36,433 nucleotides of DNA from a virus: positions 1 to 36,433 of IMG/VR virus record IMGVR_UViG_3300027736_000112. One strand, 5' to 3'. Of this stretch, positions 32,442-36,137 are shown piece by piece. The notes under the pieces were generated by a model, which was not told the origin of the DNA, made no database searches, and was given only the letters and a program-made list of their open reading frames with translations. Every line of letters begins with the position of its first letter. Within the stretch, counting starts at the first letter, position 1. Made by a program: the position numbers and the translations under genes.

Positions 32442-32475
32442 GGCCCTAGGAAAAAACTAGGGCCTTTTTTGTTTT
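32442..32475 (+). terminator. Strong intrinsic terminator
   Basis: A perfect 8-bp stem GGCCCTAG/CTAGGGCC with loop GAAAAAA, followed by TTTTTTGTTTT. It insulates the tRNA region from upstream transcription. Confidence 0.93.
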
Positions 32476-32480
32476 AACGG

Positions 32481-32509
32481 TGTACAATAAATCGTAGATG
32501 GTGTATAAT
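32481..32509 (+). promoter_or_regulatory. Promoter of the first tRNA operon
   Basis: TGTACA at 32481-32486, spacer with AATCGTAG, TATAAT at 32504-32509. It starts a few bases after the terminator. The preceding CGG is shared with the copies at 29052, 34658 and 34927. Confidence 0.87.
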
Positions 32510-32576: not shown

Positions 32577-32650
32577 TCCGGAATAGTGTAGCGGTAACAC
32601 TACAGACTTTGACTCTGTCATCCTAGGTTCGAACCCTAGTTCCGGTGCCA
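32577..32650 (+). tRNA. tRNA-Gln (UUG)
   Basis: A 74-base tRNA with encoded CCA. Anticodon stem ACAGA/TCTGT with loop CTTTGAC gives UUG. T arm is CTAGG/CCTAG with loop TTCGAAC. The first acceptor pair is U-U, which fits the weak first pair of glutamine tRNAs. Confidence 0.9.
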
Positions 32651-32747
32651 TATTGAAATGTATTACTTGCCTGACCGAAAAAGTCGTGGTAAACTACAAG
32701 AGACAGAGGGTTCGAATCCCTGGGACTGGTAGTATGTTTCAATATGG
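32648..32747 (+). ncRNA. tRNA-like sequence inside an inverted repeat
   Basis: CCATATTGAAA (32648-32658, including the CCA of tRNA-Gln) pairs perfectly with TTTCAATATGG (32737-32747). Between them are a tRNA-like T arm (GGG-TTCGAAT-CCC) and a possible acceptor CCTGACC/GGACTGG with two mismatches, but too few bases remain for both D and anticodon arms and no CCA is encoded. A decayed tRNA or another stable RNA. Confidence 0.45.
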
Positions 32748-32753
32748 TTTTTT

Positions 32754-34621: not shown

Positions 34622-34657
34622 AATAGTTGACTAAATCAGTATACTATTAAAAAGCGG

Positions 34658-34686
34658 TGTACATTAAATCGTAGTCGTGGTACAAT
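34658..34686 (+). promoter_or_regulatory. Promoter, recurrent motif with TACAAT -10
   Basis: TGTACA at 34658-34663, spacer with AATCGTAG, TGG-extended TACAAT at 34681-34686. It serves the small gene at 34717. Confidence 0.84.
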
Positions 34687-34716: not shown

Positions 34717-34908
34717 ATGGCTAGAAAATCTAAAGATGTAGTAACATACATCGATGGTGTTAAGTTTACCGAGTGTGCTTACCGTGGACCTAAAAAAGGT
34801 CAAGGGACTTTTCCTATCGATAAGTCTAAGTACACGGTTTGGACGCAGACGGTTTCCAAGTATACGCGTGGTACAAATGGTGTTCTTGGAACAGTCGAAA
34901 GAGTTTAA
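34717..34908 (+). CDS. Small basic hypothetical protein
   Basis: A 63-residue lysine- and arginine-rich protein of unknown function, with strands in GVKFTECAYRG and SKYTVWTQTVSKYT. AAAGGA lies eight bases before the ATG and a strong promoter lies upstream. A single-gene unit between two tRNA operons. Confidence 0.65.
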   Translation: MARKSKDVVTYIDGVKFTECAYRGPKKGQGTFPIDKSKYTVWTQTVSKYTRGTNGVLGTVERV

Positions 34909-34926
34909 AAATAGTTCACTTAACGG

Positions 34927-34955
34927 TGTACAATAAATCGTAGAGGTGGTATAAT
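34927..34955 (+). promoter_or_regulatory. Promoter of the second tRNA operon
   Basis: TGTACA at 34927-34932, spacer with AATCGTAG, TGG-extended TATAAT at 34950-34955. Best match of all copies to an extended -10 sigma70 promoter. The next gene is a tRNA 240 bases later. Confidence 0.88.
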
Positions 34956-34981
34956 CTACCTCTACTGCTGATAAAGCAAAC

Positions 34982-34996
34982 GTTCTTTAAAAATTT
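34982..34996 (+). promoter_or_regulatory. boxA-like element, second copy
   Basis: GTTCTTTAAAAATTT, similar to the copy at 32546 and preceded as there by GCAAAC. It lies about 20 bases after the expected start site of the second tRNA operon. Confidence 0.45.
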
Positions 34997-35053
34997 CAAA
35001 AGTCCTCTCTGAGTCTACGGTAAATACGGAGCATGAGGCACATAAAGGTTGTT

Positions 35054-35157
35054 TCAAAACGCAACGCAGGACGCATTAAATGGACCTTGAAGGTCAGCCT
35101 GAAAAGGATGCAAGTCAAAACGCCGAGCAGGAAACATTAAATGACCAAAGGTCAGCC
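35054..35157 (+). repeat. Two imperfect tandem repeats in the tRNA operon leader
   Basis: Copy 1 (35054-35099) and copy 2 (35115-35157) share TCAAAACGC, GCAGGA, CATTAAATG and AAGGTCAGCC in order. Each contains a GACC...GGTC hairpin. No reading frame with a ribosome site covers them. The leader from 34997 to 35192 holds no gene otherwise. Confidence 0.75.
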
Positions 35158-35165
35158 AAGAGTTT

Positions 35166-35186
35166 GGTGGTTCTCCAAAAACCACC
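35166..35186 (+). other. Hairpin just before tRNA-Glu
   Basis: GGTGGTT/AACCACC, 7 bp, loop of 7, no T tract. Seven bases remain between it and the tRNA start, so it may guide 5' processing. Confidence 0.55.
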
Positions 35187-35192
35187 ACCTAT

Positions 35193-35267
35193 GCTGGGTT
35201 CGTCTATCGGTTAGGACACATGCCTTTCACGTATGTAAGACGGGTTCGATTCCCGTACCCAGTACCA
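35193..35267 (+). tRNA. tRNA-Glu (UUC)
   Basis: 75 bases. Acceptor GCTGGGT/ACCCAGT, TTCGTCTA D-arm start typical of glutamate tRNAs, anticodon stem CATGC/GTATG with loop CTTTCAC (UUC), T arm ACGGG/CCCGT, CCA. Confidence 0.93.
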
Positions 35268-35391
35268 TTTGTTTAACTGACGTAAGCCATGAGGTAAACG
35301 TCAACCTTGAGTAACTCTGTCGATAAACGGTACGTCCAGCTGGCAATTCCGTTGAGGCTTAGCAAATAGTGCGTCAGTTAAACAAATGGTA
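35263..35391 (+). ncRNA. Structured RNA bounded by a 20-bp perfect inverted repeat
   Basis: The 20 bases 35263-35282 are the exact reverse complement of 35372-35391. The left arm begins inside tRNA-Glu (its last five bases, TACCA). Inside, TAAGCC (35283-35288) pairs with GGCTTA (35356-35361), AGGT with ACCT, and ACGG with CCGT around a CCAG/CTGG hairpin. No reading frame with a ribosome site is present. A stable branched RNA is likely, comparable in setting to the stable RNAs C and D of the T4 tRNA cluster; function unknown. Confidence 0.65.
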
Positions 35392-35583
35392 GAATCTCGT
35401 TACTACTTTCGTTAAAGTAGCGCTTGATTAGCGATAGAGATCCGGTGGCAGAAGACCGTTAGCGGAGCAATCCTGAATCTGATAGGCAGTTATCTTTCTG
35501 CACACAGGTACCAGATAAAAAAGATGGACAGAGTAACTGCTCAATTAAGGGCTGGCGTGGAACCCAGTAGCTTATCCTAATTT
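35392..35583 (+). ncRNA. Gene-free stretch with further RNA hairpins
   Basis: Between the inverted repeat and tRNA-Asp no protein gene or tRNA is visible. Hairpins include CTACTTT/AAAGTAG (35403-35420), enclosed by ATCTC/GAGAT (35394 and 35437), and GCAGTTA/TAACTGC (35486 and 35534), enclosing ATCTT/AAGAT. CTGG/CCAG follows near 35552-35567. This may be a second structured RNA or the continuation of the one before. Confidence 0.5.
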
Positions 35584-35659
35584 GGTCTTAAAGTGTTCAT
35601 GGACGCACACTAGCTTGTCACGCTAGAAGAGTGGGGATCGTTACCCCCTAAGACCGCCA
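35584..35659 (+). tRNA. tRNA-Asp (GUC)
   Basis: 76 bases. Perfect acceptor GGTCTTA/TAAGACC, anticodon stem CTAGC/GCTAG with loop TTGTCAC (GUC), discriminator G as in aspartate tRNAs, CCA. The T loop (ATCGTTA) departs from the usual TTCGA. Confidence 0.88.
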
Positions 35660-35664
35660 AGTTA

Positions 35665-35700
35665 TGGAGAAGCAGGTGCTACGGCATCTGTTATCCACCA
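35665..35700 (+). ncRNA. 36-base hairpin ending in CCA, tRNA minihelix-like
   Basis: GCAGGTGC-TACG-GCATCTGT is an 8-bp hairpin, extended by an imperfect TGGA/TCCA end and followed by CCA. It sits between tRNA-Asp and tRNA-Leu with the same AAGTT spacer as real tRNAs. It lacks D, anticodon and T arms. Probably an internally deleted tRNA, or a genuine mini-RNA. Confidence 0.5.
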
Positions 35701-35706
35701 AGTTTT

Positions 35707-35782
35707 GCCCTGGTGACGGAATGGCATACGTACTGGTCTTAGAAACCAGGTTCTGGGAGTTCGAGTCTCCCCTAGGGCACCA
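35707..35782 (+). tRNA. tRNA-Leu (UAG) with short variable loop
   Basis: 76 bases. Acceptor GCCCTGG/CTAGGGC, anticodon stem CTGGT/ACCAG with loop CTTAGAA (UAG), T arm GGGAG/CTCCC, A73, CCA. The variable region is only about five bases (GTTCT), whereas bacterial leucine tRNAs are class II. Confidence 0.85.
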
Positions 35783-35789
35783 AGTTTAT

Positions 35790-35881
35790 GGAAAGTAATG
35801 CAGCTGGGATGGTCCGGCGACCAGCCTTGAAAACTGGGTTCTCAGAAATGGGATGGGGTTCGACTCCTCTGCTTTCCGCCA
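35790..35881 (+). tRNA. tRNA-Ser (UGA)
   Basis: 92 bases. Acceptor GGAAAGT/GCTTTCC, anticodon stem CCAG/CTGG, loop CTTGAAA (UGA), long variable arm, T loop TTCGACT, discriminator G, CCA. Second serine tRNA of the region. Confidence 0.9.
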
Positions 35882-36043: not shown

Positions 36044-36051
36044 AGTTTAAT

Positions 36052-36137
36052 GGGTGTTGCCCCATACGGCGGTCTGTAAAACCGTTCCTGAAGGTATGGA
36101 AGTTAGGCACGTGGAGCGTTACCATCAACACCCACCA
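36052..36137 (+). ncRNA. tRNA-Tyr-like RNA without a D arm
   Basis: 86 bases with perfect acceptor GGGTGTT/AACACCC, A73, CCA and anticodon hairpin GCGGT/ACCGT with loop CTGTAAA (GUA). Only ten bases separate acceptor and anticodon stem, so no D arm fits. CCATAC in that gap can pair with GTATGG in the long variable region, enclosing the anticodon arm. The T-like loop is AGCGTTA. Probably not a normal decoding tRNA. Confidence 0.55.

Follow-up and report, generated by a model that had tools for sequence, protein, structure and literature searches.

Bacteriophage T4 carries two stable-RNA genes in its tRNA cluster. Their products, RNA C and RNA D (also called species 1 and 2 RNA), are late RNAs that were detected by Northern blot and whose function is unknown (PMC9697503). 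GOLLD (RF02032), which is known from lake samples, and the ornate ROOL resemble the RNAs described here in being structured phage RNAs encoded near tRNA islands. In GOLLD the 3′ domain is conserved and the linker sometimes holds a tRNA; ROOL assembles into homo-oligomers (PMC12286853). The window analyzed here, a 36.4-kb stretch of the viral record IMGVR_UViG_3300027736_000112 from IMG/VR, shares its layout with T4, with two predicted stable-RNA genes side by side in a T4-type tRNA cluster and one of them abutting a tRNA. The order in T4 is tRNA-Arg, 1 nt, RNA D (119 nt), 6 nt, RNA C (139 nt); in the window it is tRNA-Glu, a module that we call HP, a module that we call CORE, and tRNA-Asp.

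Layout of the tRNA array

The window encodes a T4-type replication helicase with 61.7-63.5% identity to homologues from Methylophilales phage Melnitz and cyanophages, and its tRNA array sits at the right end (Table 1). Between tRNA-Glu and tRNA-Asp, an earlier note on this DNA had described about 320 bases of structured non-coding RNA, free of protein genes, in which a 20-bp terminal stem with at least three inner helices is followed by further hairpins up to tRNA-Asp. These elements are all present. A perfect 20-bp inverted repeat (35263-35282 / 35372-35391) encloses a small hairpin, an outer helix and an apical hairpin, more hairpins extend from HP to tRNA-Asp, and the only ORFs in the stretch are short, overlapping and of chance type, with none plausible as a gene. 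Neither ARAGORN nor Rfam calls a tRNA or tmRNA within 35268-35583. The whole stretch between the two tRNAs folds moderately better than shuffled sequences (z = -2.5), and the HP stem module alone reaches -46.4 kcal/mol (z = -5.6), a value that none of 200 shuffles equals. Five nucleotides at the 3′ end of tRNA-Glu, made up of its last acceptor base, the discriminator and CCA, also belong to the first arm of the HP stem; because these bases are common to both, an intact tRNA-Glu end and a full-length HP stem are mutually exclusive.

Table 1 Features of the tRNA-Glu/tRNA-Asp region in window coordinates.
Feature	Position	Strand	Evidence
Promoter-like repeat (family D6), ends in GGTATAAT, copy 3/3	34920..34955	+	Repeat analysis
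tRNA-Glu (anticodon UUC)	35193..35267	+	ARAGORN; Rfam tRNA 55.7 bits
Module HP: ncRNA with 20-bp terminal stem, three inner helices and palindromic apical loop	35263..35391	+	Homologues, covariation, covariance model
Palindrome CCAGCTGG in HP apical loop, predicted kissing-loop dimer contact	35336..35343	+	Palindromes in 32/32 distinct loops
Module CORE, subtype A: compact pseudoknotted ncRNA whose 3′ end is the conserved GGACAGAGUAAC domain	35394..35577	+	35-sequence alignment, pair counts
PK2 5′ arm, the loop of the GCAG...CUGC hairpin	35492..35497	+	Covaries with 35520-35525
CORE 3′ domain, its most conserved part, common to all subtypes	35512..35577	+	Alignment A3 (52 sequences); model R2 72.1 bits in window
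PK2 3′ arm, immediately 5′ of GGACAG	35520..35525	+	Covaries with 35492-35497
tRNA-Asp, begins 6 nt past CORE	35584..35659	+	ARAGORN

A promoter-like sequence occurs in three copies, each 5′ of a block of tRNAs or small genes (at 32474-32509, at 34651-34686 and at the position listed in Table 1). The third copy is the likely start of a predicted transcript that contains tRNA-Glu, HP, CORE and the later tRNAs.

Further features of the array lie outside the HP and CORE modules. A serine-type tRNA (~35790-35881), where BLAST matches the tRNA-Ser of another phage, and a tyrosine-type tRNA (approximately 36046-36134) are apparently present without an ARAGORN call. The leader upstream of tRNA-Glu (34957-35192) contains two repeats that lie 61 nt apart (TCAAAACGC..GCAGG..CATTAAATG..GGTCAGCC). 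This repeat unit is found in 8 IMG/VR stretches, with one or two copies in each, and the leader is possibly another small RNA. Directly 3′ of tRNA-Gln, positions 32647-32749 form a third RNA candidate of the tRNA cluster, with a 19-bp outer inverted repeat, a conserved core (AAAGTCGTGGTAAACTACAAGAGA, a word present in 28 IMG/VR stretches) and a tRNA-like T-arm; its outer stem shows compensatory variation in L094, L130 and L154.

HP and CORE as separate modules

We obtained 80 related contigs via a neighboring phosphatase-like protein. One of them is identical across the region, and others have only its 3′ part, beside tRNAs of their own. An exact-pattern scan with the conserved word GGACAGAGTAAC...GGGCT found CORE in at least 119 IMG/VR stretches, and a scan with a word from the stem module found HP in 111; full-length homologous HP sequences number 112, of which 78 are distinct. 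The two sets overlap only in part, with both modules present at 49 loci among those compared, and we therefore divide the 320 bases into two modules. On this comparison of relatives, the stretch is predicted to encode two independent RNAs, HP (~129 nt) and CORE (184 nt). The structured non-coding RNA described by the earlier note is borne out, except that HP and CORE are independent in relatives and the single RNA becomes two.

The stretch might still yield one RNA of ~320 nt, or one RNA with a tRNA inside as in GOLLD, in which HP and CORE are domains that work only together. The two modules do share a cluster at about 50 loci and are near-adjacent in the window and in L113, and GOLLD, with its conserved 3′ domain and occasional linker tRNA, sets a precedent (PMC12286853). 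However, the gap between HP and CORE in relatives ranges from 2 to >1000 nt and frequently holds a whole tRNA, and their order is inverted in six loci (L101, L206, L211, L214, L216 and L235). Among 19 large contigs, chosen for carrying HP or CORE, 11 carry CORE alone of the two modules and 3 carry HP alone. We consider it improbable that the modules form a single RNA.

The same 19 contigs each encode 14 to 53 tRNAs, and 17 encode the T4 major capsid family gp23. CORE is present in 16 of them (in single copy in 13 and in two copies in 3) and HP in 8. In one contig of 524,565 bases (L161/L264), two HP and two CORE copies lie in opposite orientation ~300 kb apart, a doubling that reflects either an inverted duplication or an assembly artefact.

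Both modules keep close company with tRNAs. A tRNA lies within 1.5 kb of 110 of 111 HP copies and 171 of 174 CORE copies, and every tRNA counted near HP (1149 counts) or CORE (1280 counts) is on the same strand as the module. The downstream tRNA is at most 10 nt from HP in 97 of 108 copies, and the preceding tRNA is equally close in 50 of 101.

Structure and covariation of HP

Alignment of 33 diverse HP copies (A1) yields a consensus of 38 pairs, comprising a ~20-bp terminal stem, a small hairpin, an outer helix (CUAUG with CAUAG in most copies) and an AACGG/CCGUU hairpin. Across these sequences 97.0% of cells are paired. Changes on both sides affect 25 of the 38 pairs, compared with 14.2 in shuffles (0/500 reach 25) and no more than 10 in slid controls, and the cells so changed number 184 versus 52.9 in shuffles. 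About 40 columns are invariant, many of them in loops and junctions, and the strongly conserved stretches GUAAGC, UAAC, ACGGUA, CCGUUGAG and UAGCAAAUAGUGC also fall mostly there. The HP covariance model, R1, scores the window copy at 138.5 bits.

A perfect 20-bp inverted repeat with a changing DNA palindrome in its loop could in principle function at the DNA level, for example as a mobile hairpin or a site of recombination, rather than as an RNA gene. Conserved U-G wobbles in the stem, kept in 32 and 23 of the 33 sequences, instead argue that HP acts as an RNA and not as a DNA cruciform. Moreover, its strand agrees strictly with that of the tRNAs, its further helices carry compensatory changes, and the large contigs that have HP contain a single copy, except for the 524-kb contig. 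A DNA element is thus a very remote prospect.

A self-complementary HP loop

The apical loop of HP, capped by AACGG/CCGUU, contains a perfect palindrome of 6-10 nt in all 32 distinct loops, and these palindromes are of 16 kinds. Their mean length is 8.2 nt, compared with 2.9 nt after shuffling of the same loops. The palindrome centre keeps a near-fixed register across all 78 distinct HP sequences, with a central dinucleotide of GC in 75 and CG in 3. Predicted duplex energies average -12.8 kcal/mol for self pairing and -3.5 kcal/mol for cross pairing. The innermost palindrome pair also covaries, which is not needed by a simple hairpin with a normal loop. Because the loop stays self-complementary while its sequence changes, we think it reasonably probable that HP forms a homodimer via a symmetric kissing loop. 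The cages formed by GOLLD contain self-interacting kissing loops between copies and provide a precedent (PMC12286853). Because the palindrome centre is nearly fixed, a less probable alternative is that the palindrome folds back within one molecule as a very tight hairpin whose loop is only 2 nt. A partner for the palindrome was also sought elsewhere in the cluster; occurrences of a phage's own 6-mer (0.36, versus 0.25 for swapped ones) were unconvincing.

Structure and covariation of CORE

The CORE alignment (A2) holds 35 copies of the window's subtype, subtype A. In its 41 named pairs, 98.0% of cells are paired, and 11 pairs are changed on both sides, a count that none of 500 shuffles reaches and that compares with at most 2 in slid controls; further pair types do not rise above shuffles. 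The lower covariation of CORE relative to HP reflects its very high conservation. The PK2 pseudoknot contains four covarying pairs. Its arms differ between phages and change together (AAAGAU/AUCUUU, UGAGAU/AUCUCA, AGGGA/UCCCU, UGUUAU/AUAACA and UCGCA/UGCGA), and the two arms of one phage match each other better than arms exchanged between phages (mean helix 5.01 vs 3.67). Two more CORE subtypes have a different 5′ half and share the 3′ domain with subtype A. The last CORE hairpin (35546-35574) displays compensatory variation across subtypes, as read directly from an alignment of 52 sequences (A3).

A possible second pseudoknot, PK1, is invariant in subtype A and appears likely by eye. In the other subtypes, two alignment-free tests gave no separation in one case and weak separation in the other, and RNAalifold favors a nested pairing of the same UCUG; PK1 is accordingly not established.

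The earlier note had named a lack of covariation in homologues among the outcomes that would speak against its proposal; covariation is now found in HP and CORE alike, and the structure is confirmed by the compensatory changes that these homologues carry. As judged from aligned sequences, HP and CORE are almost certainly two real, conserved RNA families.

Searches for known families and cultured carriers

Rfam 15 (4227 families) gave no match reaching or approaching the gathering score for either module, whether in the window or in relatives from all subtypes; a group I intron, RNase P, SRP and 6S RNA were rejected for lack of an Rfam match. The Rfam hits around HP/CORE clusters are of tRNA type or antisense to tRNA, with weak GOLLD and tmRNA hits elsewhere only. 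A weak tmRNA-type match of 35.9 bits, below the cut-off of 47, lies in a tRNA cluster at L214:260-351. In BLAST searches of 50,697 cultured phage records, two queries had no match and two others matched only in pieces of chance length. In 84,980 prokaryote species, a stringent pattern scan returned one match, the metagenome-bin contig L300 (3 kb), where an Asp-type tRNA comes after the end of a CORE.

The covariance models R1 (HP) and R2 (CORE) found nothing credible in T4, Melnitz and S-SCSM1, and R2 likewise found nothing credible in two more T4-like records. When tested for homology to RNA C and RNA D, R1 had a best score of 11.6 bits (E 0.3), away from both, and it found nothing in the whole T4 genome. 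The best R2 score in the whole T4 genome was at chance level, 8.1 bits (E 3.1), and its position in the record, 67628, lies away from RNA C and RNA D. We found no account of either family in the open-access literature, and a subscription-only report could exist. Both families are widespread in uncultivated T4-type phages and new as far as these searches reach; structured RNAs in phage tRNA islands are, as a kind, already known.

Individual resemblances were also pursued and rejected. HP and T4 RNA D have the words GTAAG and CCTGAGTAA in common, but the model search for homology was negative and CCTGAGTAA is not conserved among T4-like RNA D sequences. The occurrence in HP of GUAACUAU, AACGGU and UAGCAAAU in 23S order suggested a mimic of 23S rRNA helices 69-71, but the similarity is at shuffle level (79/200 for the consensus). 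A 14/15 match of CORE to 23S positions ~2386-2400 (10/200 shuffles) falls where the other subtypes show no conservation. A centrally placed tRNA and the conservation of the 3′ part had pointed to GOLLD, which was dismissed because Rfam gives no match and L082 has both; the GOLLD model (RF02032) finds no match in 34900-35720 at E up to 10. In L082, a partial GOLLD-like match (L082:1-187; 53 bits, cut-off 150) and a separate CORE lie 1.7 kb apart in the same tRNA cluster, such that one phage may carry both RNAs.

Probable release from the tRNA precursor and possible roles

The position of HP and CORE in tRNA arrays on the tRNA strand, the tight tRNA spacing and the promoter-like repeat upstream all point to release from a tRNA precursor, and we consider it likely that both are processed together with the tRNAs. 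The two modules would be transcribed within a polycistronic tRNA precursor, where RNase P cleavage at the 5′ end of the next tRNA would free the 3′ end of a module and 3′ processing of the preceding tRNA would free its other end. The released HP and CORE would persist as stable RNAs, and HP would pair with a second HP copy via its palindromic loop. More tentatively, both may affect translation or tRNA metabolism in trans in the infected cell, working through their structure and not as guides. Taken as a whole, two stable trans-acting RNAs cut from a tRNA precursor, with HP homodimeric via its kissing loop, make up our best explanation, whose chances we put somewhat above even.

The hairpins might alternatively serve the tRNA precursor itself as aids to processing or stability, through end protection, steering of RNase P or RNase E, or termination, and have no trans function of their own. 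HP abuts tRNAs on both sides, and the 5 nt shared by its stem and tRNA-Glu make the two folds compete at the junction, as might be expected of such an aid. A spacer, however, needs neither ~40 invariant HP columns, nor a changing palindrome, nor a pseudoknot, and neighboring tRNAs in the same clusters lack such elements, which makes a pure processing aid quite unlikely.

If HP and CORE are instead released as stable RNAs, the main alternative for their role is that they are decoys against host defence. As counter-defence RNAs, they would decoy or inhibit a host nuclease, a toxin-antitoxin system or an anticodon nuclease. Phage tRNAs offset host tRNA cleavage in other phages, and HP and CORE lie among phage tRNAs and are kept in contigs of several sizes. 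Not all of the large contigs have HP, a patchiness that is often seen with defence-linked genes. Decoys usually turn over fast, whereas HP and CORE are highly conserved and occur in one copy per genome in most large contigs, and no defence target was identified. We regard a counter-defence role as unlikely. That HP and CORE serve translation or tRNA metabolism, and not defence or precursor maturation, is itself a tentative assignment that we rate well short of even.

Comparison with known phage RNAs

T4 RNA C and RNA D are the closest described RNAs in position and gene order. Like them, HP and CORE lie inside or at the end of a T4-type tRNA cluster, on the same strand, and are of similar scale (139 nt for RNA C and 119 nt for RNA D, compared with ~129 nt for HP and 184 nt for CORE). 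RNA D, however, has no HP-like palindromic loop when inspected by eye, RNA C ends in a tRNA-like T-arm that CORE lacks, and neither sequence nor covariance searches link the two pairs in T4 or T4-like records. Of the earlier note's proposal of a larger counterpart of RNA C and RNA D, the position in a T4-type tRNA cluster holds; the one larger RNA gives way to two, and homology was tested and not found. The two pairs are, by these comparisons, analogues in position, with no relatedness found.

GOLLD and ROOL differ from HP and CORE in size. Many GOLLD RNAs exceed 800 nt and ROOL is ~650 nt, whereas HP and CORE are far from giant and have borders of their own; the ROOL model has no Rfam match in the window. 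The structures of GOLLD and ROOL are known and their functions are not, and T4 RNA C and RNA D are likewise without known function. HP and CORE are each represented in >100 contigs and offer a testable secondary structure, a pseudoknot and an easily mutated HP dimer contact, through which the function of structured tRNA-island RNAs becomes experimentally approachable. They also indicate that the tRNA arrays of T4-type phages contain conserved RNA genes missed by annotation.

A broader interpretation is possible, though we hold it as doubtful. The tRNA operons of uncultivated T4-type phages may contain two hitherto unknown RNA classes, in which HP homodimerizes in a sequence-specific manner while its loop drifts. 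If so, the RNA of each phage would pair best with its own kind. Both RNAs might then act together during infection as small RNA-only assemblies that would parallel GOLLD and ROOL in compact form and correspond in function to T4 RNA C and RNA D.
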